A stretch of DNA of 39,143 nt from a virus: the IMG/VR virus record IMGVR_UViG_3300044591_002226, positions 1 through 39,143 of that record. One strand, written 5' to 3'. Below the pieces are notes generated by a model. That model saw only the letters and a program-made list of their open reading frames with translations. It did not search any database and was not told where the DNA came from. Position numbers and translations under genes: made by a program. Below are positions 3,164 through 35,858 of the stretch, piece by piece; position 1 is the first letter of the stretch; every line of letters begins with the position of its first letter.

Positions 3164-3864
3164 TGTTTGCGGAAGAAAAACCTGATCGTTTTGATCGACT
3201 CATCGTAGATGGCGATGGCCCGCTGGCGGCTGATCTTGTACCGCCGTGCGAGTTCCGTGAAGGTCTTTGGTTCGGTCTGCAGGCGTCCTCGGACGATGTA
3301 CTGGGCACGCTCGCTCAGGCGGCTGATGGCTCGGTCCAGCTCCTCCTTCATCGAGTCGCGCTCCGCGTTCTCGTGCACGTCGTCGGGCGCGGCCACGTCC
3401 ATCTGCTCGCCTTCCGTATCCACGAGCCCGCTGCCGGTTGGCTGGAGGTGCACCTCCGCGTACACTTTCACTTCCTCCACCGTCAGCATCAGCTCCTGCG
3501 CGATCTGCTCGTCGGTGAGGCCCTGAGCCATGAGCTTCTGGACCTTCCGGCTGTGGCGCACCACGGCCACCGGTAGACGAACGACGTTCTTCGCGAACGT
3601 CCGCTCGTGCAGGAGGGTCTTGAGAATCCACCAGTAGGAGAATGTCGTGAAGGCCCCCTGCTTCGGCTCGTACCGCTTCAGGGCCTCGAACAGGCCCAGC
3701 AGGGCCGTGGCCACGGCGTCGTCGTACGAGAGGTGTGGTCCAACGTAGCGTCGTGCAATCTGGACGGCGAAGCCGTGGTGGTGCTTGAGGAGCTTGTCCC
3801 CGTCGTCTCGGCGACGAAACCAGCTAAAACGCCGATGTAGGTTGTCAAGCTCCTCTTGGGTCAT
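3160..3864 (-). CDS. Phage-encoded RNA polymerase sigma-70 family factor
   Basis: The 234-residue protein is complete for regions 2 to 4. Region 2 spans residues 45-97: LSYDDAVATALLGLFEALKRY is the core-binding helix and FTTFSYWWILKTLLHERTF the -10-melting/recognition helix, matching the FSTYATWWIRQAI signature of group 1/2 sigmas. Residues 107-135 form a region 3-like helical segment. Region 4 is at 177-230, with LSERAQYIVRGRL and the helix-turn-helix FTELARRYKISRQRAIAIYDESIKTIR. It would redirect host RNA polymerase to phage promoters. The start ATG overlaps the primase-helicase stop (ATGA), so it is expressed with replication genes before the late genes, fitting a middle-to-late switch. 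Which promoters it reads is not shown by the sequence. Confidence 0.93.
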   Translation of the reverse strand: MTQEELDNLHRRFSWFRRRDDGDKLLKHHHGFAVQIARRYVGPHLSYDDAVATALLGLFEALKRYEPKQGAFTTFSYWWILKTLLHERTFAKNVVRLPVAVVRHSRKVQKLMAQGLTDEQIAQELMLTVEEVKVYAEVHLQPTGSGLVDTEGEQMDVAAPDDVHENAERDSMKEELDRAISRLSERAQYIVRGRLQTEPKTFTELARRYKISRQRAIAIYDESIKTIRFFFRKQ

Positions 3865-6071: not shown

Positions 6072-6103
6072 AGAGTCTTTCTTAGGGTTTTTGTAAATGA
6101 GCT

Positions 6104-8110: not shown

Positions 8111-8118
8111 GTGGGGCC

Positions 8119-8922
8119 TTAGAACTGAGCTGCCAGAGCGCGGACATCATCCGGGGTCGCGTCGCCGAACTTAATCGACGGCACGGCGAACTCGGCGTTG
8201 CCCTTGCCCGACTGAATCTCAGGCAGGAACTCCACGAACTTGGAGCTGTATCCATCCTTCCGGAGTTCGCCCGTGGCCTTGGCCGTGGCGATGGTCTTGA
8301 AGAACGCATCGTACGCGAAGGACTTCACGGAGTAGATCGCCGGGGCGTAGCGGACACCGCCAGCCTCGAACGGGAAGTGGTCATCCGGCACGCCCTCGGG
8401 CTGGGCCACGAGGACGAGACAGTTGGCCACGGTCTGGAACCACGACTTCGTGGACGAGGCACGCGGGTTCTCGCGGGACTCGCGCCAGTCGGTCGTGCCG
8501 TTGAGCTGCTCGACCTCCACGAGGCTCGTCGCGTACCCAGCGGGGTCGCCGAACTTCTTCGGCTTCTCCGCGTAGGTCTTCGACAGGAGCTTCACGAACA
8601 CCATCTTCCCGGTGACCGCCGACTTACCGTCGAGAGCCGGACGAGCGAGGGTGATCGCGTCCTTGAGCAGCAGGGCACCGAAGCCATGCTGCTGGAGGAG
8701 CTTCTTGTCCGACGTACCCTGCAGGAGCTTGAGCTTCGGCAGCGTGATGTCGGACGGGTCAACGTCGTCCGCGGCACCCGTGGCGACGATCTGATTTCCG
8801 GGGATTCGGGCGAGACCAGCCGAGGGGTTCTCATCGACCTCGACCTCCTCCACGGTGGACGCGGCTGCGGGGGCATTCGCGTTGATGGCGTTGTTCTTGA
8901 ACGATACGGTTTTCGTAGGCAT
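8119..8922 (-). CDS. Conserved replication-module protein, possibly ssDNA-binding
   Basis: The 267-residue protein has a low-complexity N-terminus (about 60 residues, Ala and acidic rich). Then come DITLPKLKLLQGTSDKK, a beta-rich middle and YAPAIYSVKSFAYDAFFKTIATAK. The lead-in LPKLKLLQG resembles phage proteins found beside recombination nucleases and polymerases, some of which are annotated as ssDNA-binding. I cannot assign a fold from sequence. Its position between a Cas4/RecB-like nuclease and PolA supports a role in DNA binding or annealing, by inference only. A 51-base gap precedes it, holding one GTATCCA copy (8943), making it one of the few spaced junctions in this operon. Confidence 0.7.
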   Translation of the reverse strand: MPTKTVSFKNNAINANAPAAASTVEEVEVDENPSAGLARIPGNQIVATGAADDVDPSDITLPKLKLLQGTSDKKLLQQHGFGALLLKDAITLARPALDGKSAVTGKMVFVKLLSKTYAEKPKKFGDPAGYATSLVEVEQLNGTTDWRESRENPRASSTKSWFQTVANCLVLVAQPEGVPDDHFPFEAGGVRYAPAIYSVKSFAYDAFFKTIATAKATGELRKDGYSSKFVEFLPEIQSGKGNAEFAVPSIKFGDATPDDVRALAAQF

Positions 8923-8973
8923 GTTATGCGTGTTTGGGTTTTGTATCCAGCAGCGGGATGCTGCCGAAAGTGA

Positions 8974-10167
8974 TTAGATGTCCACGGCGTCTTCCGTCGC
9001 GGACTTGTCCTCGGTAAGGTAGGTGTAGGGGTTGCCCTTCTTGACTGCGCCCACGTCTTCCAACGCGGACTGGAACTCCCGAAGAACCGCTGCACCTTTC
9101 CCCCGAGGAGCGGTCTTTTTGACGAGGTCTTCCACCTTCGTCAAGGGAAGCGACAGACATTCCTCAAATTGTTCCTGCGTGATGCCGTGCTGCATGGCCA
9201 CGTCGCGGACGGTGGCGAGCGAGACGATCTCCCGGTCAGCCTTGGTCACGAGACGCATGCCCGGCACCTCCACGCCCTCGGTGAGTACGGCGTCGCGGAT
9301 GCGCGTCTTGACGGACTTGCAGAACTTCTCCAGCACGCCAGCGAGCTGGTGCACGCGGCGCATGTCCTCGGGGTTCGTGAGGTACGCGGGACGCACCTCG
9401 GCGGGCACCTCGACGGACTGGTACTTCTTCGAGACGACGGTGGCGATCTTCTGCACCGCGGGGCACGTCGCGAGGTGCTGGCACCAGATGCAGAGATTGG
9501 TCGAGGGGTTCGGACGAATCTCGCCCTCCCACCCGTCGGCCTTGGCCTTCTTCTTCCGCTCGATCACGAGACGCAGGACCAGCTCCATCTGCGGCATGTC
9601 CTTCCGCGTGAAGACTTGCGTGTACTCTTCGAGACGCTTGGCGACCTCGATGTGCGGGTGGAAGAACACCACCATCACTTCGAGCACCTCGGGCCAACGC
9701 TGCATGACGGCGAGCGCGTACGCGATGCCCTGCAGGTTCTCCGAGGTCGGCGTGACGAGCTGCTTGCCGAACTTCCAATCGAGAATCGCCGCGAGCGTAC
9801 CCTGCTCGCCCCGCCCGATGATGAGCGTATCCGGGTAGCCACCCGTGATGCCCTCCCAACCGGCGGTGGACTCGTCCGGGGCGACCGCGAGGTACTGCTC
9901 GCGGATCACCTCCACTTCGAGCCCGCCGTCCTTGAGGTTCTTGATCACGTCGTCTTCGAGGTCAATGGCCCGCTGGACGGCAGCGACGTGGGACTCATCG
10001 TCCAAGGTCGAAAGGTCGCGGGTCTCCGCGGCCTTGTGCTGCAGCGTCCCCGCGATGGAGGCCGCTGAGTCGCGGCTGGCGTTCGTGAAGAACGCGCATT
10101 GCGCGGAGCTCTGCAGCGATGATGGGCTGTCCGGGTGGTGGCCGCGTTCAGTAGTTGTCTGGGTCAT
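8974..10167 (-). CDS. Cas4/RecB-like PD-(D/E)XK nuclease with predicted Fe-S cluster
   Basis: The 397-residue protein starts at MTQTTTERG; a 13-residue longer start would lie deep in the upstream gene. The nuclease core is SLQSSAQC (C24), TLQHKAAE (H44), GGYPDTLII (D113), AAILDWKFGK (D130, K132) and NLQGIAYALAVM (QxxxY-type motif). One early cysteine plus CIWCQHLATC later is the Cas4/AddB arrangement of four Cys that hold a 4Fe-4S cluster. Such phage nucleases resect DNA ends for recombination-dependent replication. It overlaps the upstream 75-aa gene by 20 bases. Confidence 0.88.
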   Translation of the reverse strand: MTQTTTERGHHPDSPSSLQSSAQCAFFTNASRDSAASIAGTLQHKAAETRDLSTLDDESHVAAVQRAIDLEDDVIKNLKDGGLEVEVIREQYLAVAPDESTAGWEGITGGYPDTLIIGRGEQGTLAAILDWKFGKQLVTPTSENLQGIAYALAVMQRWPEVLEVMVVFFHPHIEVAKRLEEYTQVFTRKDMPQMELVLRLVIERKKKAKADGWEGEIRPNPSTNLCIWCQHLATCPAVQKIATVVSKKYQSVEVPAEVRPAYLTNPEDMRRVHQLAGVLEKFCKSVKTRIRDAVLTEGVEVPGMRLVTKADREIVSLATVRDVAMQHGITQEQFEECLSLPLTKVEDLVKKTAPRGKGAAVLREFQSALEDVGAVKKGNPYTYLTEDKSATEDAVDI

Positions 10168-10375
10168 TTTCGATTTTTTCGGGTTCGTGTGTATCCATCG
10201 CGCCAACTCGGTTGGCGACTTGGAGGGTGACGAGGTGCTCGCGGAGTTCGGTCATCTCGTGGGTGGGGTACTGATCCGTCGAGCACGGGTGCTCAATGGC
10301 CCGGATCAGCAGGTACGCGAGCTTCGGGTCGGTGGTGACCCGCTGCTCGAACAGCTTTCGGTTGATGATGTACAT
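10148..10375 (-). CDS. Small unknown protein, 75 aa
   Basis: The sequence starts MYIINRKLFEQRVTTDPKLAYLLIRAIEHP and ends in an acidic tail, EPEKIENDPDNY. It has a helical N-terminal half and no recognisable motif. It sits in the leftward operon 3 bases after the upstream gene's stop and overlaps the start of the Cas4-like nuclease by 20 bases, so translation is probably coupled. A GTATCCA copy (10191) lies within it, read as Asp-Thr codons. Function unknown. Confidence 0.7.
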   Translation of the reverse strand: MYIINRKLFEQRVTTDPKLAYLLIRAIEHPCSTDQYPTHEMTELREHLVTLQVANRVGAMDTHEPEKIENDPDNY

Positions 10376-10378
10376 GGC

Positions 10379-10588
10379 TTAGGGTTGTGGGTTCTCGGGA
10401 CGAGATTCAAATTTGACAAGCCCGAACCGAATCCAGCGTCGTACTTCGCGCTGCAGTTCGCGGGACATGTTGAGCCACCTGCCGGTCGAGACGAACCTCT
10501 GCGCGTGGGCGTGGAAGTCGTCGTGGCTGATGGTACGGGTCAGCACGGCCCGGACGAACTCGTCGTCACTCATCGGGTTGGGGGTCAT
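10379..10588 (-). CDS. Small unknown protein, 69 aa
   Basis: The chosen start MTPNPMSDDEFVRAVL lies 4 bases after the upstream stop. An in-frame longer version would be inside the nuclease gene, and a second Met lies five codons in. The product is helical with a basic C-terminal half (SRELQREVRRWIRFGL). No motif is recognised. The tight spacing on both sides supports an operon gene. Function unknown. Confidence 0.7.
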   Translation of the reverse strand: MTPNPMSDDEFVRAVLTRTISHDDFHAHAQRFVSTGRWLNMSRELQREVRRWIRFGLVKFESRPENPQP

Positions 10589-10592
10589 ACAC

Positions 10593-11072
10593 CTAGAAAA
10601 AGTGGGGCTCGAAGTCGCCGAACAGGCTGATCGGAATGTATCCGTTTTTTCGCAGGGCCTGACCTCCATTGCAGCTCCGCTTGGTCGCGGTGATGTCGCA
10701 GTCGATCTTGGCAGCGAGGGTGCCGTCTGGGTGCACGATGTGAGCGACGCAGACGGCTTCGTCGGGTATGCTGTAGAGCACGACGTAGCCGGGGACGTAC
10801 AAGGCGTGGGCCACGTCCTGCATGGCCTCGATCTTCGACCACGTCAGAATGAGCGAGCCGAACCGCTGGAAATCCTCAACCGTGTTCTCCCGGCACTTGA
10901 TCTCGGCGACGGCGTGAACCTGACCGTCGCGGATGGACACGATGTCCAACGCGGCGGGCGTGTGCAACGGCGTGTGGTACACGAACGAGCTGCGGTAGAG
11001 CTCCTGCATGTAAGCCACGACCTTGCGCTCTTCCTCGACGTACCGCTGGCCTCTTTCAGTTAGAATATCCAT
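10593..11072 (-). CDS. PD-(D/E)XK nuclease-like protein
   Basis: The 159-residue protein starts at MDILTERGQRYV. The fold signature is TPAALDIVSIRDGQ (Asp near 43), then AVAEIKCREN (Glu 58, Lys 60), the D...ExK active site of small restriction-type, VRR-Nuc-like or Holliday-junction nucleases. No specificity domain is visible. It begins inside the end of the SF2 helicase gene (17-base overlap), suggesting that helicase and nuclease work together on branched or damaged DNA. The active-site pattern is clear; the substrate is not. Confidence 0.75.
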   Translation of the reverse strand: MDILTERGQRYVEEERKVVAYMQELYRSSFVYHTPLHTPAALDIVSIRDGQVHAVAEIKCRENTVEDFQRFGSLILTWSKIEAMQDVAHALYVPGYVVLYSIPDEAVCVAHIVHPDGTLAAKIDCDITATKRSCNGGQALRKNGYIPISLFGDFEPHFF

Positions 11073-12153
11073 GGATGATGTACCCGAGGTCTTCGTAGAC
11101 CCGCAGGCGGGCCTTCCACTGCGCGTGCGCGAACGTGAGCCCACGGTCGGCGAAGTCGTAGACGATGCCGCAGGTCTTTCCCGCGTGCGGGCGCATCACA
11201 CGCCCGGCGCGTTGGATGGTCTTGGTGGCTGAACGCCCGCCCGCGGCGAGGATGAGCACCGAGGCGCGTGGGAAATCTGCGCCTTCGTCAAGGAGCGACG
11301 TGGCCACGGCGCACTTCAGCGAGCCGTCGCGCAGCGCGTCCGTCAGCTCCTTGCGCTTCTTCGCGCCGAGCTTGGAGTGGATACACGCTGCGCCGACGAC
11401 TGACTCTGCCAGATACTCGCCGTGCTCGATAGACCCCACGAGGATGATCACCGTCTCGCCCTTGGCCATCTCCTGCTCCGCGGTGCGGATGATGGCTGCG
11501 TTCCGCGCTGCGTCGTTGCGCAGGTGGTCGGAGGTGTACTGCCAGATGACGCGACGGCGGTGCTCGTGCTCCGGGATCGCTCGGAAGATGCGCGTGCGTC
11601 GCAGCACCTCGCGTTCGACCTGCGGCTCAATCTCGCCGTCGTAGCCCCGAGGCCAGTCGATGTCGAGGACGTGAACGTGGCCGGGCACGAGGTGTCCTCC
11701 GGCCATCACGTCGGCTCGGTCGATCTCGATGAACTCAAGGAAAGTCTGCTGGACCGACGTGTTCCGGTCCTTGTCGTCGGTCCACGGCGTGGCCGACAGG
11801 CCCCAGAGGTGGCGGGCCTTCGCGCTCGAATCGATCATGGCCCTCCACGTCGCCGCAGGCGAATGGTGGGCCTCGTCGATCACGACGATGGTGTATCCAC
11901 TCAGGTCAGGCTGGGCGGCGACGCAGGCGACCATCGGGTCTTCCACGCCAGCCCGCTGGAGCGCGGCCTCGGCCTGAGCGCACTGCTCCCGGGTGTTGGC
12001 GAGCCACGCAACGCGGTCGCCTGAGCGCAGCACCTTGGCGCACGCCGCAGCACCGATCACGGTCTTGCCGCTCCCGGCGGGCGCGATCACGAAGGCCCGG
12101 GATCGGTCCACGAGGAAATCGAGGGCCTCGACTTGGTAGGGGCGGAGGTTCAT
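11056..12153 (-). CDS. Superfamily 2 DNA/RNA helicase (RAD25/UvsW-like)
   Basis: The 365-residue ATPase has all main SF2 motifs: LRPYQ (Q-like motif, residues 3-7), APAGSGKT (motif I, about 24-31), VVIDEAHH (motif II, DEAH), GLSATPW (motif III), VATSLLDEGADFP (motif V) and QRAGRVMRP (motif VI). The compact size and LRPYQVEAL start resemble phage UvsW/RAD25-type helicases that remodel forks and R-loops. It overlaps the metalloprotease-like gene by 4 bases upstream and the nuclease gene by 17 downstream. Confidence 0.92.
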   Translation of the reverse strand: MNLRPYQVEALDFLVDRSRAFVIAPAGSGKTVIGAAACAKVLRSGDRVAWLANTREQCAQAEAALQRAGVEDPMVACVAAQPDLSGYTIVVIDEAHHSPAATWRAMIDSSAKARHLWGLSATPWTDDKDRNTSVQQTFLEFIEIDRADVMAGGHLVPGHVHVLDIDWPRGYDGEIEPQVEREVLRRTRIFRAIPEHEHRRRVIWQYTSDHLRNDAARNAAIIRTAEQEMAKGETVIILVGSIEHGEYLAESVVGAACIHSKLGAKKRKELTDALRDGSLKCAVATSLLDEGADFPRASVLILAAGGRSATKTIQRAGRVMRPHAGKTCGIVYDFADRGLTFAHAQWKARLRVYEDLGYIIHGYSN

Positions 12154-12578
12154 CGGCGGGCCTTTTCCATTTCAGCGAGGCAGCGGCGCACGAGCGAGTC
12201 GTGCAGGTAGGTGTAAGCCTCCTCGGTGTGCCGGTTAAAATTCAGGCCACGGCTCCGTAGCATGGACGCCGTGGTGTGGAGGCACTCGTGAGCGAGCGTC
12301 CCGATGTCGTCGGGGGTCCACTCGAACTTCCGGAGGCAGATGAGGTAGAGTTCGTGCTGCTTGTCCGAAAGTTCGAGGGACCACGCGCACCACGGGTCAA
12401 GCCGAGGGATCGCGCCGACGTACTCAGGAAACGTCCTCGCGATGTACGACTCCATGCCTTTTGTATCCACGTCCCAGCACACCTGCACGGTTGCGTTGTA
12501 CACCGGCTCCTCGAACCACCCGGTCCAGAATCGATGGGCACGCACGAAGTGCGGGCTGCTGAGACGCGGCGTTTTCAT
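12150..12578 (-). CDS. HExxH zinc metalloprotease-like protein
   Basis: The 142-residue protein has GTLAHECLHTTASML with HECLH at 97-101, the zinc-binding HExxH motif, followed by NRHTEEAYTYLHDSL. There an acidic residue at 119/120 could be the third ligand, as in gluzincins and ImmA-like peptidases. There is no signal peptide. Similar small HExxH proteins occur in phage early regions, where they may cleave host regulators; none is proven here. It overlaps both neighbours by 4 bases. The metalloprotease fold is a motif-based call and the substrate is unknown. Confidence 0.72.
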   Translation of the reverse strand: MKTPRLSSPHFVRAHRFWTGWFEEPVYNATVQVCWDVDTKGMESYIARTFPEYVGAIPRLDPWCAWSLELSDKQHELYLICLRKFEWTPDDIGTLAHECLHTTASMLRSRGLNFNRHTEEAYTYLHDSLVRRCLAEMEKARR

Positions 12579-13570
12579 CGGGCCGACTGGAGCATGCGGC
12601 GGCAGGTCAGCACCGCGTTGTTTAGGTTGGCGAACACGTTGTCGCGGAGCTGGGTTCCGCGGTTGGTGGCGAGCTTCAACTCGCAGATGTCGGCCACGAG
12701 GCGCGACTCGTCGAGGACGCGGAGTAACCTGTCCACGTCGGGCAACGCAGCGAGCTTCGCCTGACGGACCTCTTCCTCGGCCTTGGCGCGGGCCGCTTTG
12801 GCCGCTTCTTCGGCTTTACGGGCCACCTCAGCGCGGAGGGCCTCCTCGGCCTTGGCCTTGGCTTCCGACTCGATTCTGGCCTGCTGCTCGGCCTCCTCAC
12901 GGGCCTTCCGCTCGATGGCCAGACGTGCGTCCGCCTCGGCCTTGGCCTTGGCCTCCGCCTCGATCCGGGCCTTGCGTTCCTCGGCGAGACGAGCCTCCGC
13001 TTCGGCACGGGCCTTGGCCTCCGCCTGCTCACGCTGGCGGCGTTCCTCCGCGAGACGGGCCTCCGCCTCAGCCTTGACCCGTGCGACCTCCTGCCGCTGC
13101 GCGAGGATGGCCTGCGCCTGCTTGAGCAGGGCCGCGTAGTCGTCGTCCGACAGTTTACCGAGGTCCACGCCAATGGCCGTGTAATCGATCTGAGCCAGCT
13201 CGGCGGCGCGAGCCGTGGCACGGGCCTTGGTCTCGGCCTCGATGCGTCGGGCCTCGGCCTTCTCGATGGCGTCGAGGTGGTCCTCCAGCGGGATGATGGT
13301 GCTTTCGATGGCGCGAAACGCGGCGTCAATGGCCCGGCCACGGACGAGGATGTGCTCCTTCAGCTCGTCCTTCTTGTGCCCGGCCTCCACGCGAATTTTC
13401 TTCAGCGTGAGGCGCGAGGCGCGAGCGACTTTCGGGTCGGTCACTTCAGCGACCTTGGTCTGCCAGTCCATCGCCTGCAGCCAGAACGGGCGCAGGGCCT
13501 GCTTGATCGAGAGCTGGCCGTCATAGTCGAGGCCGCTCGTGTTGAGTACGAGTTCTAGGTTGGTGCTCAT
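12575..13570 (-). CDS. Long coiled-coil protein (TolA-like repeats)
   Basis: The 331-residue protein starts at MSTNLELVLN. The N-terminal 130 residues are helical (LTLKKIRVEAGHKKDELKEH). Residues about 165-285 are a continuous Ala/Glu/Lys/Arg coiled coil built from near-repeats of AEARLAEERK. The C-terminal domain (about 290-331) ends NLNNAVLTCRRMLQSAR. Phage proteins with this plan are usually annotated only as coiled-coil or DUF1351-like. The repetitive codons make the opposite strand also look open. A scaffold for replication complexes is possible but unsupported. Confidence 0.82.
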   Translation of the reverse strand: MSTNLELVLNTSGLDYDGQLSIKQALRPFWLQAMDWQTKVAEVTDPKVARASRLTLKKIRVEAGHKKDELKEHILVRGRAIDAAFRAIESTIIPLEDHLDAIEKAEARRIEAETKARATARAAELAQIDYTAIGVDLGKLSDDDYAALLKQAQAILAQRQEVARVKAEAEARLAEERRQREQAEAKARAEAEARLAEERKARIEAEAKAKAEADARLAIERKAREEAEQQARIESEAKAKAEEALRAEVARKAEEAAKAARAKAEEEVRQAKLAALPDVDRLLRVLDESRLVADICELKLATNRGTQLRDNVFANLNNAVLTCRRMLQSAR

Positions 13571-13575
13571 GGGAA

Positions 13576-14121
13576 TCAGTAGTTGTCGGGAATGCGGAGG
13601 ATGCGGTGCGCGATGTACTTGGCCCACCAGTACACGGTGAGACCGATGGATCGCCACCAGAGGTGTTTGGCGGGGGTGTCGATGAAAAGCGGCTTACAGC
13701 CCCAGCGGTAGCAGTAGGTGACGGGCTTGCCGTCCGTGGCGCGGACGTTGGTCAGGACGTTGTCGCGGCTCGTGTCGAAATTCAGGGAATGCCAATTCCC
13801 AAACTCGAAATCAACGGCCTCGCCGTGCGCTTCGAGGAGCCAGTTGGTGAACGAGTTGTAGTGGCTCCCGCCCTTACACGTCACGACGTACCGGCCCACG
13901 GGCTTCACCCGGAAATCAATCAGCAGGTTGGTGCAGGACTCGCGACCGAGGTCGAGCACGTCCTCCTTCGATCCGACGACGTAGAAGTCCTTGAACGTCG
14001 AGCTTGTGCATTGGAATACCTTCATCGTGTCGCTGTAGGTCGGTAGGTCTGGGACCAGTACGCCGTTCGCGACGGTGATACCGTCGAGGTTCTCGTAGGA
14101 GTGGTAGTTTTTGTCGGGCAT
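13576..14121 (-). CDS. Unknown protein, 181 aa
   Basis: The start is MPDKNYHSYENLDG; the longer in-frame extension would run through the membrane miniprotein gene. The product is mixed alpha-beta with a Trp-rich C-terminus (HLWWRSIGLTVYWWAKY) that could be membrane-associated. Several Cys are spaced CTSS, SCTN, TCKGG, YCYRWGC. No family recognised. It lies between the coiled-coil gene (5-base gap) and the membrane miniprotein (1-base gap), so it is clearly in the operon. Confidence 0.72.
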   Translation of the reverse strand: MPDKNYHSYENLDGITVANGVLVPDLPTYSDTMKVFQCTSSTFKDFYVVGSKEDVLDLGRESCTNLLIDFRVKPVGRYVVTCKGGSHYNSFTNWLLEAHGEAVDFEFGNWHSLNFDTSRDNVLTNVRATDGKPVTYCYRWGCKPLFIDTPAKHLWWRSIGLTVYWWAKYIAHRILRIPDNY

Positions 14122-14122
14122 G

Positions 14123-14308
14123 TTAAGCGAGGTAGAGGGCCAACCAGAGAGCGACACTGAGCACGAGTGCAGAGGTGGCACAAAGGGCCTTGAAAACAAA
14201 CTCACGCAGCGGTGCTCTTTCGAGGTAGGACTGGTAGGCGTCATCAACGAGGTATAAGGTCGCGCAGGACGCGAGGACGGACAAGACGAGAGTGAGTATG
14301 GGTAGCAT
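14123..14308 (-). CDS. Two-helix membrane miniprotein, 61 aa
   Basis: The hydrophobic N-terminal segment MLPILTLVLSVLASCATLYL and C-terminal segment ALCATSALVLSVALWLALYLA flank a charged loop (DDAYQSYLERAPLREF). Two transmembrane helices with both ends on one side is a holin-like or superinfection-exclusion-like plan. Its position near the start of the early leftward operon argues against a holin and for an early membrane function. Function unknown. Confidence 0.68.
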   Translation of the reverse strand: MLPILTLVLSVLASCATLYLVDDAYQSYLERAPLREFVFKALCATSALVLSVALWLALYLA

Positions 14309-14310
14309 GG

Positions 14311-14703
14311 TTACAGGTTATCTCTGAGGATGCGGCGACCGACACGCGTCAGTGTCCCGCGTGACACTCCGACCTCCTCGGCCAGACGCTCGGCCAGACC
14401 GGGCTGCAGGCGACGCTTGTCCTTTGGGGTCGTGGCCCAACGACGAGCGGCCTCGACGACGGCGGCACTGACGCGCATCCCGGGGATGAGGCCAGAGGTC
14501 GAGTCAACCCCCGCGCCGTGTGCGCCTTTGGGTCGTGGGGCGGCGGGTCGTTGGGGGTTGCGTTCGAGCTTGATCATGGAGCGGATGCCCTCGGCGATGA
14601 TCAGCTCTCTCTTGGCCCGTTCGCAGAATCGCTCGTAGTAGCGGGCGCACGACGTTTCGGGGCTCAGGCTCGACTCGGCGAATACAATGCGCGTGAACGT
14701 CAT
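14311..14703 (-). CDS. Putative HTH DNA-binding protein, 130 aa
   Basis: The C-terminal 35 residues read LAERLAEEVGVSRGTLTRVGRRILR, a clear helix-turn-helix with the AeevGVSrgTLtRv pattern. A basic Pro-rich linker (PQRPAAPRPKG) separates it from an N-terminal helical part. The gene overlaps the ribbon-helix-helix gene by 4 bases and is second in the leftward operon, next to the divergent control region, which fits a transcriptional regulator of the early switch. The target operator is not proven; the palindrome at 14976-14994 is a candidate. Confidence 0.72.
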   Translation of the reverse strand: MTFTRIVFAESSLSPETSCARYYERFCERAKRELIIAEGIRSMIKLERNPQRPAAPRPKGAHGAGVDSTSGLIPGMRVSAAVVEAARRWATTPKDKRRLQPGLAERLAEEVGVSRGTLTRVGRRILRDNL

Positions 14704-14933
14704 CGGCGGGTCTTCTTTGTGCTGCGCTTCTTCGTCTTCCCGGCGGGGGTCTCAGCCGCGTATCCACGGACGATCTCGCGGACCACGTCGGACATCGAGA
14801 GGTCACGCTCGGCGGCGAACGCCTTGAGCTTTTCAATTTGCTCCGGTCGGAGCACCACTGACATTTTCGTGTTCATCGGAGTCCACCCTGCACGCGGCCC
14901 TCGTTTGGGCACGCCTTTTCCGTTTGTATCCAT
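14700..14933 (-). CDS. Ribbon-helix-helix (CopG/Arc-type) DNA-binding protein
   Basis: The 77-residue basic protein carries TKMSVVLRPEQIEKLKAFA then ERDLSMSDVVREIVRGYA, a textbook RHH fold (one beta strand, two helices) that binds DNA as a dimer, with a Lys/Arg-rich tail. It is the first gene of the leftward replication operon, next to the divergent region. Autoregulation is therefore likely but inferred. The first ATG (14933) overlaps a GTATCCA copy; a second Met at 14876 starts right at the RHH strand and could be the true start. Confidence 0.8.
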   Translation of the reverse strand: MDTNGKGVPKRGPRAGWTPMNTKMSVVLRPEQIEKLKAFAAERDLSMSDVVREIVRGYAAETPAGKTKKRSTKKTRR

Positions 14934-14975
14934 CCTTCAATACAGAGAGTGTTTCGTAAGTCGTTGGTATACCGT

Positions 14976-14994
14976 ATTTTCCAGATCGGAAAAT
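14976..14994. promoter_or_regulatory. Palindromic operator candidate between divergent promoters
   Basis: ATTTTCC and GGAAAAT form perfect 7-base arms around AGATC. The site lies just upstream of the leftward TATACC box and 12 bases before the rightward promoter box, so a dimeric repressor here could control both directions. The RHH and HTH proteins encoded directly to the left are the natural candidates; binding is inferred. Confidence 0.55.
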
Positions 14995-15006
14995 TTCTGA
15001 AGTTTT

Positions 15007-15057
15007 TTGAAAATAGTGCTTGCAACAATCACTGGGGTCTGATCCACTCTGTCTCGT
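15007..15057 (+). promoter_or_regulatory. Rightward cassette promoter, copy 1
   Basis: TTGAAAATAGTGCTTGCAACAAT-type box (15007-15029), then 17 bases, then CTCTGTCTCGT (15047-15057). The next ATG is at 15077 and has no Shine-Dalgarno. The same two boxes with identical 17-base spacing recur at 17444, 19091 and 19642. Confidence 0.65.
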
Positions 15058-15076
15058 CAACCTATTACTCACTCCC

Positions 15077-15280
15077 ATGACATCCACCGTCACTACGCAA
15101 CGCACCCCAGTCCGCTACGCAACCATTCAAGACATTCCTTCGCGCTATAACTTCGCGGAGGCCATGCCCAACTCGACATTTCCGGAGTATTGGCATGCGC
15201 GCACCCGCTACGCAACGGCAACCCACCGCATTTTTCGTTTGTTTAACGGCAAAGTGCTCCGAGTAGTGCGTTTTTACTAA
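15077..15280 (+). CDS. Small unknown protein, 67 aa
   Basis: The start MTSTVTTQRTPVRYATI follows cassette promoter copy 1; the upstream in-frame ATG lies inside the promoter box and is rejected. The product is basic and aromatic with a strand-rich C-terminus (HRIFRLFNGKVLRVVRFY). There is no recognised motif and no Shine-Dalgarno. As the first gene to the right of the divergent region it is probably expressed early. Function unknown. Confidence 0.6.
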   Translation: MTSTVTTQRTPVRYATIQDIPSRYNFAEAMPNSTFPEYWHARTRYATATHRIFRLFNGKVLRVVRFY

Positions 15281-15317
15281 ATTTTCGTCTGAAACCATAA
15301 CCTGAATACATAATAAC

Positions 15318-16127
15318 ATGAACCTCGATACTGTCCGCCACCTCGCACCCGCAGCGTTCGCCATCACCCCGGACGCCAGCCTGTCTGACTCCTACAGCCA
15401 CGTTACCACTGCCCACGTCCTCGACGCCCTGCAGCAGGACGGCTGGACCATCACGGACGCCCGCCAGCCCCGCACCCGCACCGGCAGCGTGGACCACAAG
15501 AAGCACGAGATCAGCCTGACCCACCGCGACCTGCCGACGCACGCCGAGGGCTCCCCGCTCCTGCGCCTGAGCAACAGCAGCGACGGTGGGCACGCGTTCA
15601 GGCTCATTGGCGGCTTCCTCCGAGCGGCGTGCACGAACCAGCTCTACACCGGCATCAAGGTGGTCGGCGGCGTGTTTTATCACCGCGGCGGCGGGCTGGA
15701 GGACCGCATCGTCGCTGGTGCCCGCGAGGCCCGGGCCAACTTCGACAAAGTCATCTCCATCGTGGACCTCTGGCGGCAGATCGAACTCAACCCCGAGCAG
15801 CGTCGCGATATCGCCATCGCCGCCGTCGCGGCCCGGTGGCCGGGCGGGGCCGGGGCTCCCGTGTTCGCCGACTACCACGGCATGCTGCGGCCCCGCCGCT
15901 GGGGCGACGAGGGTCGTGACCTCTGGTCCACGTTCAACAGGGCTCAGGAGGCCGTCATGCGCGGCGGATTCGAGGCGTCGTTCGCCCGCTTCAACGACGA
16001 GGGCGAGCGTATCCCCGGTTTGAACACGCGGTACGTCCGCAAGGTGACGAGCCTCACTGCGACCCAGCGCATCAATACCCAGCTCTGGGACCATGCGGCC
16101 CTTGTCGCCGGGTCCATCACCGTCTGA
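15318..16127 (+). CDS. DUF932 family protein
   Basis: The 269-residue protein shows the DUF932 order: an N-terminal YSHVTTAHVLDALQQDGW; a HEISLTH segment; SNSSDGGHAFRLIGGFLRAACTN (the family's conserved S...G...A..RxxCTN core, about residues 90-115); H at YHRGGG; and the helical C-terminal half with WSTFNRAQEAVMRGGF. DUF932 proteins are common on phages and plasmids, sometimes near DNA metabolism genes, with no established activity. A 37-base gap separates it from the previous gene. It is followed by a strong terminator. Confidence 0.85.
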   Translation: MNLDTVRHLAPAAFAITPDASLSDSYSHVTTAHVLDALQQDGWTITDARQPRTRTGSVDHKKHEISLTHRDLPTHAEGSPLLRLSNSSDGGHAFRLIGGFLRAACTNQLYTGIKVVGGVFYHRGGGLEDRIVAGAREARANFDKVISIVDLWRQIELNPEQRRDIAIAAVAARWPGGAGAPVFADYHGMLRPRRWGDEGRDLWSTFNRAQEAVMRGGFEASFARFNDEGERIPGLNTRYVRKVTSLTATQRINTQLWDHAALVAGSITV

Positions 16128-16143
16128 CCAGCGTCATCACAAT

Positions 16144-16182
16144 GGGGGCGGGTCTGGCCCGTGCGGGCTCGCCCCCTTTTTT
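16144..16182 (+). terminator. Rho-independent terminator after the DUF932 gene
   Basis: GGGGGCG (16144-16150) pairs with CGCCCCC (16170-16176). The loop contains a second GCCCG-TG-CGGGC hairpin, and the stem is followed directly by TTTTTT. The DUF932 stop is 17 bases upstream. Confidence 0.88.
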
Positions 16183-16190
16183 CCTCTCCC

Positions 16191-16421
16191 ATGAAAACCA
16201 AGCCCCCAGTCCAGCCTGTCCCAGCCAAGCGCGGCCCCGGTCGCCCTCCTCTTCCCAACGCACGCGGGTCCATGATCCCGTGGCGCATCCAGCCGAAGAC
16301 GCTCGACGCCTTCCGGTTCCTCGCTTTCGCCGCGAATGTCCCACCGGGCAAGTTGCTCGATGAGATGCTCGCCGAAACTAACGTCCGCAACCACATCCGT
16401 CAGACTATCCGTAAAAAGTAA
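16191..16421 (+). CDS. AT-hook plus ribbon-helix-helix-like small DNA-binding protein
   Basis: The 76-residue protein starts MKTKPPVQPVPAKRGPGRPP, where KRGPGRPP is an AT-hook-like minor-groove motif. It continues IPWRIQPKTLDAFRFLAFA then VPPGKLLDEMLAETNV, which fits a ribbon-helix-helix strand and two helices. It follows the terminator by 8 bases, so it either uses read-through or a weak promoter overlapping the terminator; no good promoter is visible. A role as regulator or nucleoid-like protein is inferred. Confidence 0.65.
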   Translation: MKTKPPVQPVPAKRGPGRPPLPNARGSMIPWRIQPKTLDAFRFLAFAANVPPGKLLDEMLAETNVRNHIRQTIRKK

Positions 16422-16430
16422 CCCGTATCC

Positions 16431-16832
16431 ATGAGCACCGATACGTCCGCCACTCCAGTTGAACAGGCCCGCGAGCTGATCGTTCGCGCCCTCGAAATCC
16501 TCTCGACGGTTGAGCCGTCGAAGCCGAAGCGTCAGCACCCGTTCGACATCGTCATCGACCGTGTCGCCGAGGCGTTCCGCGTTGACCGCGCTCTCATCTT
16601 CTCCCGGCTCCGCACGGCGGAAGCTGCTCGGCCCCGTCAGGTCGCGCTCTACTTCTGCCACCAGATTGACCGCGACACGCTGAAGATCGCGAAGTACTTC
16701 GGTCGTCAGCGTGCGACCGTCATCTGGCACCTGAGCACCATCGAGCACCACCTGCAGACGGACAAGAAATTTCGGACCTGCGTGGAGAGCCTCAGTCAGG
16801 AGCTGGAGGCACTCGTATCGAAGACGCCGTGA
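16431..16832 (+). CDS. Stand-alone DnaA domain IV-like DNA-binding protein
   Basis: The 133-residue protein aligns along residues 38-128 with the C-terminal DNA-binding domain of DnaA: IVIDRVAEAFRVDRALIFSR (I..VA..F.V...DL.S), AARPRQVALYFCHQI (the RPRQiAmYL.RE helix), LKIAKYFGRQRATVIWHLSTIEHHL (the IG..FGGRDHTTVLHA..KI helix-turn-helix) and DKKFRTCVESLSQEL. There is no AAA+ ATPase domain. GRQRATV replaces the usual GRDHTTV that contacts the DnaA box, so altered specificity is likely. Its ATG is part of a GTATCCATG sequence. It may mark the phage origin or compete with host DnaA; this is inferred. Confidence 0.82.
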   Translation: MSTDTSATPVEQARELIVRALEILSTVEPSKPKRQHPFDIVIDRVAEAFRVDRALIFSRLRTAEAARPRQVALYFCHQIDRDTLKIAKYFGRQRATVIWHLSTIEHHLQTDKKFRTCVESLSQELEALVSKTP

Positions 16833-17152
16833 CGACGCTCAACTTCCCGCTCAAGACGAAGGCGACCCAGCGTACGCCGGGCGAGACGTGGGACATCCTC
16901 ACCGGCATCTCGATGATCGTGCCGACGACGGTGGAGCTGACCCACAACCTCACGGACGACACGAACGACTGGCTGCTCATCGTCGTATTGGACTACGAAC
17001 TACGGGACCACGAACTGTACCAGCTCGCGCTGGCCGCTGGCCTCGACTACGTCGCGGTCGATGATTCGATGGGCCTGCGGGTCGTGGGTCCGCGGGCCGC
17101 GGAGTGGCGACCGTTCCCGGAGTTAACGTTCGTGCGGCTCACGACTGCCTGA
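16829..17152 (+). CDS. Unknown protein, 107 aa, GTG start
   Basis: It begins with GTG overlapping the TGA of the DnaA-like gene (GTGA), so translation is coupled. The product is beta-rich and acidic in the middle (NLTDDTNDWLLIVVLDYELRD), ending VVGPRAAEWRPFPELTFV. No motif identified. Same transcription unit as the DnaA-like gene and the following Cys-rich protein. Confidence 0.65.
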   Translation: MTTLNFPLKTKATQRTPGETWDILTGISMIVPTTVELTHNLTDDTNDWLLIVVLDYELRDHELYQLALAAGLDYVAVDDSMGLRVVGPRAAEWRPFPELTFVRLTTA

Positions 17153-17159
17153 TCCTACC

Positions 17160-17447
17160 GTGGCCTTCCCGTGCACCTCCTGCGGCCTCTGCTGCAAAGT
17201 GGGACCGAAGTTGGTGCCGGGGTGGCCACTGCGTGAGGACGGCGCGTGTATCCATTTACACCACGACAACACCTGCAAAATCTACGCCTCGCGACCGCTC
17301 GTCTGCCGGGTCGATCAGATGCAGCGGCTCTCGGGAGCAACGGAGCGGGAGCACCACGAGGCCAACGCCGAGGTCTGCAACCGGCTGCAGGAGGAGGCTA
17401 AAATGGACCCGAAATACCGCGTCCAACTGCCCCCAAAAAATTCTTGA
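17160..17447 (+). CDS. YkgJ-like CxxCGxCC metal/Fe-S cluster-binding protein
   Basis: The 95-residue protein starts with GTG (MAFPCTSCGLCCKVGPK). The motif CTSCGLCC at residues 5-12 together with CIHL and NTCKIYASRPLVCR is the signature of the YkgJ/UPF0153 family, thought to bind zinc or an Fe-S cluster, with some members acting in protein modification. It is 7 bases from the previous stop and its end overlaps cassette promoter copy 2. Role in infection unknown. Confidence 0.8.
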   Translation: MAFPCTSCGLCCKVGPKLVPGWPLREDGACIHLHHDNTCKIYASRPLVCRVDQMQRLSGATEREHHEANAEVCNRLQEEAKMDPKYRVQLPPKNS

Positions 17448-17494
17448 AAATAATGCTTGCAATAATCCCTGAGGGGCCTTTTGCTCTGTCTCGT
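17444..17494 (+). promoter_or_regulatory. Rightward cassette promoter, copy 2
   Basis: Box 1 17444-17466 (variant ending TTGCAATAAT), 17 bases, box 2 CTCTGTCTCGT 17484-17494. It overlaps the last bases of the YkgJ-like gene, and the ATG is at 17516. There is no terminator before it. Confidence 0.65.
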
Positions 17495-17515
17495 AACACT
17501 CAAATCCTCACTCAC

Positions 17516-17989
17516 ATGACCTCCTCCATCCTCACCCTGAACGACGCCCGCTCCCAGAAGAACGCCGCTGACGCCCGGTCCGAAGCCAAGGACACCGCCG
17601 CCGCGGCCAAGCGTCGCGAGACCGCCGCGATCCTCCGGGCCTACCCGCAGATTGGCGTCCTCCAGCGCGGCACCAGCCCGGTGTACTACGCTCACGTCGG
17701 CGTCACCCGTACCTACGTCGAGCACCGCAACATCCACGAGATCGTCGCCGCCGTCGCGTCCGCCGTAGCCCGTGGTGAGGACACCGGCGAGGCGGAGTAC
17801 CTTGCTGCGGCCCAGACCAAGGCGGACCTCTGGGTGCCCGCTTGCGGGGGCAAGGAAGTCCCGACGGTGGCCAATGGCCGGACCTTGCTCTACTGCTGGA
17901 ATCACGCCCGCCGGGAGCACGCGTACATCGACCTCCGCAGCGACACCGTCCTCTCCGACGACGAAGCCTCCGCCATCTTCCGCCGCTGA
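17516..17989 (+). CDS. Unknown protein, 157 aa
   Basis: The start MTSSILTLNDARSQ lies 22 bases after promoter box 2; an earlier in-frame ATG would sit within the promoter. An Ala-rich charged helix (residues 10-45) is followed by VYYAHVGVTRTYVEHRNIHEIVAAV and a C-terminal strand region, ACGGKEVPTVANGRTLLYCWN. No family recognised. There is no Shine-Dalgarno (leader ends CTCACTCACATG). First of several small genes in a rightward string ending at the 19044 terminator. Confidence 0.68.
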   Translation: MTSSILTLNDARSQKNAADARSEAKDTAAAAKRRETAAILRAYPQIGVLQRGTSPVYYAHVGVTRTYVEHRNIHEIVAAVASAVARGEDTGEAEYLAAAQTKADLWVPACGGKEVPTVANGRTLLYCWNHARREHAYIDLRSDTVLSDDEASAIFRR

Positions 17990-18009
17990 ACCCTCAACGA
18001 CCTACTCAC

Positions 18010-18279
18010 ATGACCTACTCCATCCTCACCCGCGACCTCGTCGCTGCGGGCTTCGTGCAGGCTTACTTTAACTCCAACAACGCGTGGGGCTTCGGCGGTG
18101 CCGTCGGGTTCCGCTTCGACCGCGGCAACGTTACGGTCAAGATCGCGGAGGCGTACGTCCGCCACCAGCGGAAGCCCACTGCTTTCGTCACGGTAACCAT
18201 CAATGGCCGACGCGTATGGGACGAGGTTCCCAGCCGCTTCGCCTACACGAAGGCCCGTGACCTCGCCCTCGCAGCCTAA
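18010..18279 (+). CDS. Unknown protein, 89 aa
   Basis: The start is MTYSILTRDLVAAGF, with a leader ending CTACTCACATG like the cassette genes. It contains a beta-rich GFGGAVGFRFDRGNVTVKIAEAYV and a conserved-looking VTVTINGRRVWDEVP. No motif recognised. It lies 20 bases after the previous stop and has no Shine-Dalgarno. Function unknown. Confidence 0.65.
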   Translation: MTYSILTRDLVAAGFVQAYFNSNNAWGFGGAVGFRFDRGNVTVKIAEAYVRHQRKPTAFVTVTINGRRVWDEVPSRFAYTKARDLALAA

Positions 18280-18302
18280 TCCATCATCCATCATCTCCTA
18301 CC

Positions 18303-18503
18303 ATGAATATCACCCGCATGCGCCGCTACCGGATCAACGCGCCGTCCACCTTGCAGATAGATCACAACCTTGACCAGCGTTTGGTCCTCGCCCCCCGCGA
18401 CCTCAGTGTAGAGGACGGCCCCACCGTGACGGCGTACTTTCTGGATGACGGTCCCGTGGTCTCCCAGCAGGTCCAAAAGCTGACCCTCAGTCCCACCCAC
18501 TAA
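18303..18503 (+). CDS. Small unknown protein, 66 aa
   Basis: The sequence starts MNITRMRRYRINAPSTLQID and ends in a strand-rich VVSQQVQKLTLSPTH. It is probably a small beta protein. The leader is a C/T-rich run (ATCATCTCCTACC) with no Shine-Dalgarno. The gene is flanked by short gaps in the same rightward string. Function unknown. Confidence 0.6.
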   Translation: MNITRMRRYRINAPSTLQIDHNLDQRLVLAPRDLSVEDGPTVTAYFLDDGPVVSQQVQKLTLSPTH

Positions 18504-18514
18504 GCCTCTTCACG

Positions 18515-18784
18515 ATGTACACCGAAATCCTAACCACCGAGGAGGCCGTGCGTCTCCTCTCGACCCTCACGACCCGCGACCACGCTGGTCGCCACTACAC
18601 CGTCCTCCACCCGCCCGCGCATCTCGACGACCTCGAACAAGCTGGGTACATCGAGGTGTATCGGCCTATCCACCACACGGGCGTCCGTTACAGCGAGGAA
18701 CACTGGCAGGTCGATGTGACGGACAAGGGTCGCGACCTCGTGGAGACGCACCCGGAGTACTGGCCGGAGGAGGCTCGGTCGTGA
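18515..18784 (+). CDS. Winged-helix-like small protein, 89 aa
   Basis: Helical N-terminus TEEAVRLLSTLTTRDHAG, then LDDLEQAGYIEVYRPIHH and HWQVDVTDKGRDLVE. A helix, an LEQAGYIEV turn, a beta wing and the TdKGrdlVe end resemble the tail of winged-helix domains. It would be a DNA-binding protein if correct. It overlaps the next GTG start by 4 bases. Confidence 0.6.
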   Translation: MYTEILTTEEAVRLLSTLTTRDHAGRHYTVLHPPAHLDDLEQAGYIEVYRPIHHTGVRYSEEHWQVDVTDKGRDLVETHPEYWPEEARS

Positions 18785-19038
18785 ACTCGCGCACCGCCCT
18801 GTCCCACACCCTCGGTCTCGATGCCGGAGAATTGTCCGACTACCAATACCAGCCCGGTGTCTTTCCCCGGGCGATCTACGCCATCGACGACGCTTACTTT
18901 TGCGTCGGCAAGCGGCCCCCGGGCCCGGCCCGCATGGAGCACCTCGCGGGGCTCCGGTGGGAGCCTCACGCCGATCAGTTCTGGGCCGAGCGGGCCTCGA
19001 CGATGATCTGGCGGGCCGAGGCGCAACCTGCACCGTAA
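18781..19038 (+). CDS. Unknown protein, 85 aa, GTG start
   Basis: GTG overlaps the previous TGA (GTGA). The sequence is MNSRTALSHTLGLDAGELSDYQYQP then AIYAIDDAYFCVGKRPP and a Trp-rich end (RWEPHADQFWAERAS). No motif recognised. It is the last gene before a strong terminator 6 bases downstream. Confidence 0.6.
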   Translation: MNSRTALSHTLGLDAGELSDYQYQPGVFPRAIYAIDDAYFCVGKRPPGPARMEHLAGLRWEPHADQFWAERASTMIWRAEAQPAP

Positions 19039-19043
19039 CCAAG

Positions 19044-19072
19044 GCCCCGGGGAGCGATTCCCGGGGCTTTTT
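19044..19072 (+). terminator. Rho-independent terminator, cassette boundary 1
   Basis: GCCCCGG (19044-19050) pairs with CCGGGGC (19061-19067), followed by TTTTT. The loop GAGCGATTC is shared with the terminator at 19608, pointing to duplication of the cassette boundary. Confidence 0.88.
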
Positions 19073-19090
19073 CATGCCCCAAAAATCTCC

Positions 19091-19141
19091 CTGAAATTAG
19101 TGCTTGCAACAATGCACGCAGGGGCCTTTACTCCGACTCGT
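19091..19141 (+). promoter_or_regulatory. Rightward cassette promoter, copy 3
   Basis: Box 1 CTGAAATTAGTGCTTGCAAC.. at 19091-19113, 17 bases, box 2 CTCCGACTCGT at 19131-19141; ATG at 19160. It begins 18 bases after the previous T run. Confidence 0.65.
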
Positions 19142-19159
19142 AACCTAAATCCTCATCAC

Positions 19160-19588
19160 ATGAAAACACACACCGTCCGCTTCTCCAACGCCACCTGCCG
19201 CGATGCCGCGCTGCTCATCCCCGCCGAACCGGCTTCGCTGTACCAAGTAGCCAAGCTGATCACGCAGAGTTATCTCGACTACATGTTCTCGCGCCCATCG
19301 CTCATGTCCGACGAGGTGTTAGTGTCGTCCATCGGCAAGAACAGCTTCTTCGGCGGGGCTCTGGGCGGCTGGCAAACGCGCCTGAACGCGAAGGATTTCG
19401 CCGCTCTCGAGAGCCTGTTGGATGACATTTGGTTGGCCGTGGCCGTGGTGCGGTACCGCGACAGCTCGATCTCGCCAGCCGACGCCTACCGGATCGCCGC
19501 GAAAAACGAGGCCCTCTCCGAGGCTGACCGCAAGTCCTTGCGGGCGATGGCCGCATTCGCGGAGCGGGCGGCGGGGGTCAACGCCTGA
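19160..19588 (+). CDS. Unknown protein, 142 aa, single-gene cassette
   Basis: The start MKTHTVRFSNATCRD follows promoter copy 3 without a Shine-Dalgarno. The product is mostly helical: LYQVAKLITQSYLDYMF, then an SIGKNSFFGGALGGWQTRL segment and a C-terminal Ala-rich helix. No family recognised. The gene has its own promoter and terminator, so it is an independent transcription unit about 550 bases long. Confidence 0.65.
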   Translation: MKTHTVRFSNATCRDAALLIPAEPASLYQVAKLITQSYLDYMFSRPSLMSDEVLVSSIGKNSFFGGALGGWQTRLNAKDFAALESLLDDIWLAVAVVRYRDSSISPADAYRIAAKNEALSEADRKSLRAMAAFAERAAGVNA

Positions 19589-19607
19589 CCAGCCTCAACC
19601 TCATCAG

Positions 19608-19636
19608 CCCCGGTGAGCGATTCCCGGGGTTTTTTT
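19608..19636 (+). terminator. Rho-independent terminator, cassette boundary 2
   Basis: CCCCGG (19608-19613) pairs with CCGGGG (19624-19629), followed by TTTTTTT. The GAGCGATTCCCGGGG half is nearly identical to the terminator at 19044. Confidence 0.85.
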
Positions 19637-19641
19637 GTGCC

Positions 19642-19692
19642 CTGAAATTAGTGCTTGCAACAATGCCTCCGCGTTGATCCACTCTGTCCCGT
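19642..19692 (+). promoter_or_regulatory. Rightward cassette promoter, copy 4
   Basis: Box 1 at 19642-19664 is identical to copy 3 in all 23 bases. Then 17 bases, box 2 CTCTGTCCCGT at 19682-19692 and ATG at 19708. It starts 5 bases after the preceding T run. Confidence 0.65.
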
Positions 19693-19707
19693 AACAAACT
19701 TACTCAC

Positions 19708-20181
19708 ATGATCCACACACGCATCACGAACGAAAAGATCACCGCCGCCCGCGAGCAGCTCCGAGCCGCTGCCGAGAACCGCGCACGCATGATCGCGGAG
19801 TGCCTCGTCGAGGAACTCGACTGCGTCCGCACCATCAACGCCGAGCGGACCAACCTCGATGTCCTCGACGCTCAGGAGGCCCTCAACGCCGCTGACGGCC
19901 AGTGGACGTTCCTCATCCTCACCGACCTCGCAGGTCAGGAAGTCGATGCGTTCGAGGCCGAGGGCCAGTGGGGCTGGCGGTGGTGCGTCGAGGGTCAGTG
20001 GATGCCGCAGTACGGCACCCGCGACACGGCGCGTCGCCTCGCCAACCTCGCGGCCCGAGGTTACAAGTGGACCGAGGTGACGCTGCCCGCCGTGGTGGCC
20101 ACCGAGGCCGCTGGAAATCACCTCGACGTGACCTACCTCCCGGCGGACCGCAGGCCCCGCCGGATCATCCGGGCGGCTTAA
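19708..20181 (+). CDS. Unknown protein, 157 aa, single-gene cassette
   Basis: The start MIHTRITNEKITAAREQL lies 15 bases after promoter box 2. A long N-terminal helix (about residues 8-60) precedes a domain with GQWTFLILTDLAGQEVDAFE, WGWRWCVEGQWMPQYGT and ARRLANLAARGYKWTEVTLP. No family recognised. There is no Shine-Dalgarno, and a terminator follows within 12 bases. Function unknown. Confidence 0.65.
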   Translation: MIHTRITNEKITAAREQLRAAAENRARMIAECLVEELDCVRTINAERTNLDVLDAQEALNAADGQWTFLILTDLAGQEVDAFEAEGQWGWRWCVEGQWMPQYGTRDTARRLANLAARGYKWTEVTLPAVVATEAAGNHLDVTYLPADRRPRRIIRAA

Positions 20182-20192
20182 CCGCTCCACCG

Positions 20193-20222
20193 GCCCCGGG
20201 CCTCACGGCTCGGGGCTTTTTT
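20193..20222 (+). terminator. Rho-independent terminator ending the rightward cassettes
   Basis: GCCCCG (20193-20198) pairs with CGGGGC (20211-20216), followed by TTTTTT. TTTTTTGTGCCCTG after the stem repeats the sequence after the 19608 terminator. Confidence 0.85.
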
Positions 20223-35820: not shown

Positions 35821-35833
35821 AAAACCCGAACAG

Positions 35834-35851: not shown

Positions 35852-35858
35852 TAACTAT

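Follow-up and report, generated by a model that had tools for sequence, protein, structure and literature searches.

The window, that is, the whole stretch of DNA analysed here, is a virus record of 39,143 nt with 62.9% GC, in which gene direction diverges near 15 kb. To the left lies a gene cluster on the minus strand (3160–14876), headed by the gene for an RHH (CopG/Arc-type) protein of 58 aa (14700–14876, minus strand), behind which follow genes for an HTH-like protein, a helicase, a PD-(D/E)XK exonuclease, DNA polymerase A, a DUF5906 protein and, as the last gene of the cluster, a phage sigma factor (3160–3864, minus strand), with unknown genes between them. Gene order and strand suggest that the cluster is transcribed as a single operon. 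The sigma factor carries Sigma70 regions 2 and 4 (region 4 scoring 23.7 against a cut-off of 24.1; likely start at 3864), and suggests that later promoters could be under phage control. The first rightward genes (15080–16832, plus strand) are an orphan (15080–15280) and those for a DUF932 protein (15318–16127), a GRPP-containing protein (16191–16421) and a DnaA_C-domain protein (16431–16832); the terminase is encoded farther right. The small GRPP-containing protein is RHH-like by eye, has no Pfam or PHROG match and is kept in the two relatives described below. Also among the rightward genes is that of a CxxCxxCC-domain (putative metal-chelating) protein (17160–17447, plus strand), and the intergenic stretch 35803–35858, ahead of the gene at 35859, holds GTCTGATATACCAGAC- and CGTCTGATACATCAGACG-like palindromes.

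The same locus occurs in two relatives, IMGVR_UViG_3300013126_000034 (60 kb; hereafter G1) and the more distant 3300034106_003862 (58 kb; G2), whose region is identical in 3300042298_003223. The RHH gene and the intergenic block are kept in all three phages, and the HTH-like, helicase, exonuclease and PolA genes follow in the same order, so that in each the RHH gene comes first with replication genes behind it. Only three lineages carry the region: a DUF932 scan gave seven loci, three of which carry it (L006, L007 and L012), and two of five records matched the region by DNA. Viral contigs were scanned with three DNA patterns and with RHH, HTH and helicase as queries, and no fourth lineage was found among the matches listed; one scan for relatives covered the best 80 of 182 matches, and two pattern scans covered those rows that met additional motif filters (21 in one of them). 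The stretch 12000–20200 had no near match among 50,697 phage records, in which the matches to DUF932, PolA and TerL (22, 1401 and 7 records, respectively) all lay below 60% identity, and genome contigs scanned with the HTH alignment gave no relative. Judged by these comparisons, the phages form an uncultured group without a close relative in the searched phage records. We claim no host, because GTAAGTCGTTGRTA followed by GCTTGC was found in 23 stretches against about 29 expected by chance (a rough hand estimate); a search of the literature on Verrucomicrobia promoters found no paper.

The RHH protein and its neighbour

The RHH gene probably starts at 14876 and not at 14933, since in G1 a TAA lies in frame three codons before the same Met, and the true intergenic gap between the leftward cluster and the rightward genes is therefore 14877–15079. 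An earlier reading of this DNA from its letters alone (the sequence-only reading) had placed two DNA-binding proteins, RHH and HTH, immediately left of a palindrome in this gap. The first of these is supported, with the RHH_1 profile scoring above its cut-off of 20.5 bits in two of the three records (31.2 in G2 and 20.6 in G1) and just under it in the window (18.7). The structural model of the protein, built on a three-sequence alignment, has a mean pLDDT of 71 and helices at residues 11–24 and 28–42, and as a monomer it has no assigned strand. Its top Foldseek matches are CopG and ORF56 folds (a CopG-family protein, ORF56 and CopG), with probabilities of 0.96–0.99 and weak E-values (best 0.12; no match at E ≤0.001); the names of matches 9kkd and 3ft7, the latter being ORF56, were taken from the sequence search. 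By sequence against solved structures, the protein matched ORF56 at E 0.035 and, very weakly, CopG at E 0.73, and it also matched Arc-like PHROG families weakly.

For the second protein, the gene does adjoin the RHH gene, whereas its assignment as HTH is weak. It encodes 130 aa (14311–14703, minus strand), overlaps the stop of the RHH gene and is kept in all three phages. A possible C-terminal HTH is suggested by an HTH_3 fragment at 12.6 bits, under the cut-off; the protein matched no PHROG at 0.1 and had no meaningful Pfam match. Its model (mean pLDDT 68) has a helical C-terminus, with a best fold match no better than E 0.65.

Palindrome and promoter-like sequences in the gap

The divergent gap is AT-rich (39–45% GC in 100-nt windows against 63% for the whole window), and the palindrome ATTTTCC-N5-GGAAAAT that the sequence-only reading had pointed out is perfect at 14976–14994. 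It reads ATTTTCC-AGATC-GGAAAAT and is a candidate operator with a core of TTTC[CT] (14978–14982) and [AG]GAAA (14988–14992). When as many as 3 mismatches are tolerated, the window still has a single match to the 19-nt pattern, the perfect one, where shuffles gave a mean of 0.42 and at least one match in 35 of 100. Of 2000 dinucleotide shuffles of the gap, 8.6–9.0% (P 0.086–0.090) contained perfect arms of at least 7 separated by a spacer of 0–10, and 1.2–1.4% contained such arms with a spacer of exactly 5. The lone palindrome is weak evidence and only mildly unusual by chance, and conservation therefore carries the case.

Overlapping it is a second dyad, TCGGAAA-A-TTTCTGA (14986–15000), which pairs at six of seven positions in the window and is a perfect 17-nt dyad, TTCAGAAA-A-TTTCTGAA, in G2, where an arm of at least 8 arises in 2.3% of shuffles. 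It adds a third half-site, and because the two dyads share one half-site we read the region as an array of three, TTTCC, GGAAA and TTTCT; from the coordinates, the centres of the first two lie 10 bp apart and those of the last two about 7. No further dyad copies were found in the window by the patterns tried, and dyad-like matches do occur elsewhere in G1 and G2. An RNA hairpin or terminator was considered and rejected, as on neither strand does the whole gap fold better than its shuffles (z 1.14 and 0.50); the palindrome itself folds slightly better than shuffles (z −0.94 and −1.20), and Rfam gave no match up to E 1 in 14500–15500.

The rightward promoter-like element (15020–15048, plus strand) starts 26 bp right of the palindrome and consists of TTGCAA (15020–15025), 17 nt and TCCACT (15043–15048). 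This box proved stronger than first claimed, with four copies in the window (15018, 17455, 19102 and 19653) and nine across the three phages, the others lying at 38025 and 40312 in G1 and at 35206, 37349 and 38244 in G2 (coordinates of the reverse complement of each record). The copies were picked by eye from matches to GCTTGC[AC] on both strands, and all nine face right. Each has TTGCAA or TTGCCA, a 17-nt spacing and a hexamer ending in T, usually followed by a CTCTGTCTCGTAA-like stretch. A matrix built from the nine copies finds them again at scores of 29–41, with the next best at 12.7, a recovery that is not independent because the same copies trained the matrix. Apart from its final T the −10 hexamer is poor, and a scan with the standard consensus missed the box. 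The −35 is immediately preceded by the AT-rich stretch TTTGAAAATAGTGC (15006–15019, plus strand), which is partly common to the copies (as a consensus) and may be UP-element-like.

On the leftward side, GGTATACC, read earlier as a −10, is present at 14966–14973, whereas that role was not borne out and the site is not conserved: the same place reads GGTATACT in G1 and GATAATGG in G2, and matches at up to 1 mismatch do not clearly exceed the chance level (7 against 4.2 expected, with 13 of 100 shuffles reaching 7). The leftward TATACC within it (14971–14966) is one weak −10 candidate, kept in G1 and replaced by ATTATC in G2. A weak alternative at 14941–14970 on the minus strand is ATACCA-17-CTCTGT, our own reading of a weak matrix match, or, shifted by one base, TACCAA-17-TCTGTA, which ranks second at low scores in the window (1.6) and G1 (2.5) and falls outside the best three in G2; TTTTCA-17-TCCGAT is another candidate. 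No leftward promoter was consistent among the window, G1 and G2, and the box matrix slid over the leftward strand gave weak, inconsistent matches. The span of 40 bases given earlier for the leftward −10, palindrome and rightward box was too tight, as the stretch that takes in both GGTATACC and the rightward −10 is 83 bases long.

An AT-rich, skew-switching region beside replication genes could also be an origin of replication with repeats as origin elements. The low GC of the gap agrees with this, as do a cumulative GC skew that reaches its maximum at 14–15 kb and three copies of CTACGCAAC a short way to the right (15093, 15115 and 15208). Set against this, the skew change coincides with the switch of gene direction, the repeat (15093–15216 in the window) lies inside the orphan reading frame and is absent from G1 and G2, and further copies of the promoter-like box stand at 17.4, 19.1 and 19.6 kb. 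A DnaA-box origin was rejected on the absence of an exact TTWTNCACA from the window. Because the repeat is missing from both relatives, no exact DnaA box is present and the skew follows gene direction, we treat the origin as a rival and not as the lead, and consider it improbable.

A side lead concerns GTAAGTCGTTG (14956–14966, plus strand), which is conserved in the window, G1 and G2 and is a single arm of a palindromic element of other phage contigs; across 197 other loci it was not generally in excess (one occurrence, where scrambled versions averaged 0.78). A pattern scan found 27-nt palindromes with GTAAGTCGTTG as an arm in 13 other IMG/VR contig stretches (L438–L450), where a dispersed 27-nt palindrome, GTAA[G/C]TC...GA[G/C]TTAC, is often paired across a GC-rich linker of 23, 31 or 33 nt. 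These stretches hold 42 GTAA...TTAC palindromes in 91,923 bp, all of 27 nt where 23–31 was allowed, against 0–1 for seven other end words, a density that is biased because the stretches were chosen for the motif and some repeat sequence (L438/L441; L440/L445 share copies); the 197 other loci hold 7 in 1.93 Mb. Eleven of 29 gaps between neighbours are 23 (7), 31 (3) or 33 (1) nt, and the arms differ between copies and match within a copy, although the search admitted only arms with no more than one mismatch in ten. The full 27-nt palindrome is absent from the window, G1 and G2. This palindrome has the look of a mobile or regulatory phage repeat made of paired hairpins; searching the literature for the motif letters gave no title that deals with it, and in PMC6050381 the matching passage is a primer table. 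A full GTAAGTCGTTG...CAACGACTTAC palindrome also occurs at two places (L305 and L322) of one bacterial chromosome record, the Verrucomicrobiae MAG OX638380.1, where an AT tract and a promoter-like GCTTGAC stretch follow downstream.

Conservation of the dyads in the relatives

Between the window and G1, 14977–15029 is identical at 53 of 53 positions, while the four-fold sites of seven genes are 60–81% identical. Within 14960–15060 the two differ at 14973, 14976, 15030, 15032, 15037 and 15042. Because the outermost base, 14976, is one of these, the perfect palindrome arms are 6 bp in G1 and not 7; four of the differences fall in 15020–15048, all inside the 17-nt spacer of the rightward box. The more distant G2 (four-fold identity of 41–61%) reads TATTTCTGGTTCAGAAAATTTCTGAAG where the window reads ATTTTCCAGATCGGAAAATTTCTGAAG. 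Its version of the first dyad (TTTCTG-GTT-CAGAAA) has lost two outer pairs, changed one C-G pair to T-A and gained one pair, which leaves six paired positions out of nine. When the six changes are placed at random, at least 6 pairs result in 7.6% of trials, and this symmetric retention, not significant alone (P 0.076), is suggestive only.

Conservation extends over the entire block as far as the rightward −35, so part of it may be unrelated to the RHH protein. Carried to its end, that thought leaves no operator at all: the block would be conserved for two promoters with their UP elements, and the palindrome would be a chance feature of A/T tracts. The shuffle frequencies of the palindrome and the P value for dyad retention are compatible with such a reading, and A/T tracts do adjoin the −35. 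The pattern of changes argues against it, as 14977–15000 is unchanged in G1 where the promoter stretch has its four spacer differences, and G2 changes symmetrically and holds the perfect 17-nt dyad; we regard it as quite unlikely.

Alternatively, the dyad may be real and bound by another protein, such as the HTH-like neighbour, the DnaA_C-domain protein or a host factor, with the RHH protein acting elsewhere or partnering something else. The HTH-like gene adjoins the RHH gene in all three phages, and the DnaA_C-domain protein is encoded about 1.4 kb to the right. Yet the HTH assignment is weak, the window lacks an exact DnaA box, and autoregulation by an RHH protein encoded first in its operon is a common arrangement. 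Binding by one of these other proteins therefore seems rather unlikely to us.

Proposed control of the replication genes

The sequence-only reading had proposed that the locus could be the early decision switch of the phage. In a lysis/lysogeny switch of this kind, two repressors would choose between leftward and rightward transcription, and the divergent promoters and the repressor-like gene beside the palindrome would suit it. The lambda-type CI/Cro switch likewise combines divergent promoters with a palindromic operator; unlike lambda, the present phages have no HTH_3 domain over the cut-off, no integrase and one operator array. None of the three records (the window and the 60-kb and 58-kb relatives) was found to contain a Phage_integrase or a Resolvase domain, with controls positive in 14 of 14 and 13 of 14 genomes; the search covered these two families, the window is a fragment and the virus records are possibly incomplete. 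A CI-like repressor over the HTH_3 cut-off, the one HTH family searched genome-wide, was likewise found in 0 of 3. The Arc repressor of phage P22 is also a phage-encoded RHH fold, but belongs to the immunity region of a temperate phage, whereas the RHH gene here heads a cluster of replication and sigma factor genes next to a single operator array in the window, and no integrase was found. We therefore do not uphold the decision switch and regard it as very improbable. Because replication proteins and the sigma factor follow the RHH gene, control of the timing or amount of replication gene expression fits better than a lysogeny choice, and a timed cascade is suggested instead by the place of the sigma factor gene, last in the cluster.

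The broader idea of a divergent control region held up, in that the palindrome core and the rightward promoter are conserved and the first leftward gene encodes an RHH protein. What the sequence itself shows is the gene order, the dyads with their conservation, the family of promoter copies and the place of the first leftward protein in the RHH family. On these grounds, the reading that we favour, and to which we give roughly an even chance, is that of a CopG/ORF56-like, RHH-autorepressed control region for replication genes, with binding by the RHH protein as a prediction. The locus would then serve a (probably virulent) phage as its divergent early control region, in which rightward transcription would start from one of several sigma-70-like promoters (−35 TTGCAA, 17 nt, weak −10) and leftward transcription from a weak promoter near the palindrome, which would drive the RHH repressor gene and then the replication genes and the sigma factor. 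RHH dimers may bind the half-site array TTTC[CT] / [AG]GAAA / TTTCTG (14976–15000) and, once bound, would repress their own operon, limiting replication-gene dosage as CopG and ORF56 do on plasmids; they may also act on the rightward promoter. Simple repression needs the operator to overlap the leftward promoter, an overlap that is conjectural because the leftward candidates are inconsistent.

In PMC5717011, CopG of pMV158 is described as auto-repressing the copG-repB operon, in which the gene for this small RHH protein is transcribed together with the replication gene behind it, and a title in the reference list of that paper refers to a symmetric operator element. The present locus resembles this arrangement, and differs from it in that the genes form a phage cluster including a sigma factor, with divergent promoters and an operator that is a candidate, and in that the sequence match to CopG is at E 0.73. 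ORF56 is named in PMC4234260 as the repressor gene in the replication operon (orf56/orf904) of pRN1, and here too a repressor gene and a replication gene would share one operon, in line with the sequence match at E 0.035 and the Foldseek match 3ft7; unlike that archaeal plasmid, the present element is a phage with sigma-70-like promoters. The likeness to CopG and ORF56 is one of control logic, and by this likeness the locus may belong among autorepressed systems. A more speculative extension, to which we give little credence, is that an integrase-less phage uses plasmid-style copy control, in which a CopG-like rheostat on three half-sites between two promoters would set the dosage of replication and sigma factor genes and so allow long-lived extrachromosomal persistence (as a phage-plasmid or in a carrier state).

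The control proposed here is thus probably of a familiar kind and not a dormancy switch. If the favoured reading is true, an uncultured phage group would gain a regulatory map with recognisable promoters, one operator, the protein that likely binds it and a sigma factor encoded last in the cluster, and the logic of plasmid CopG and ORF56, with the RHH repressor first and replication genes behind it, would extend to a phage replication cluster.
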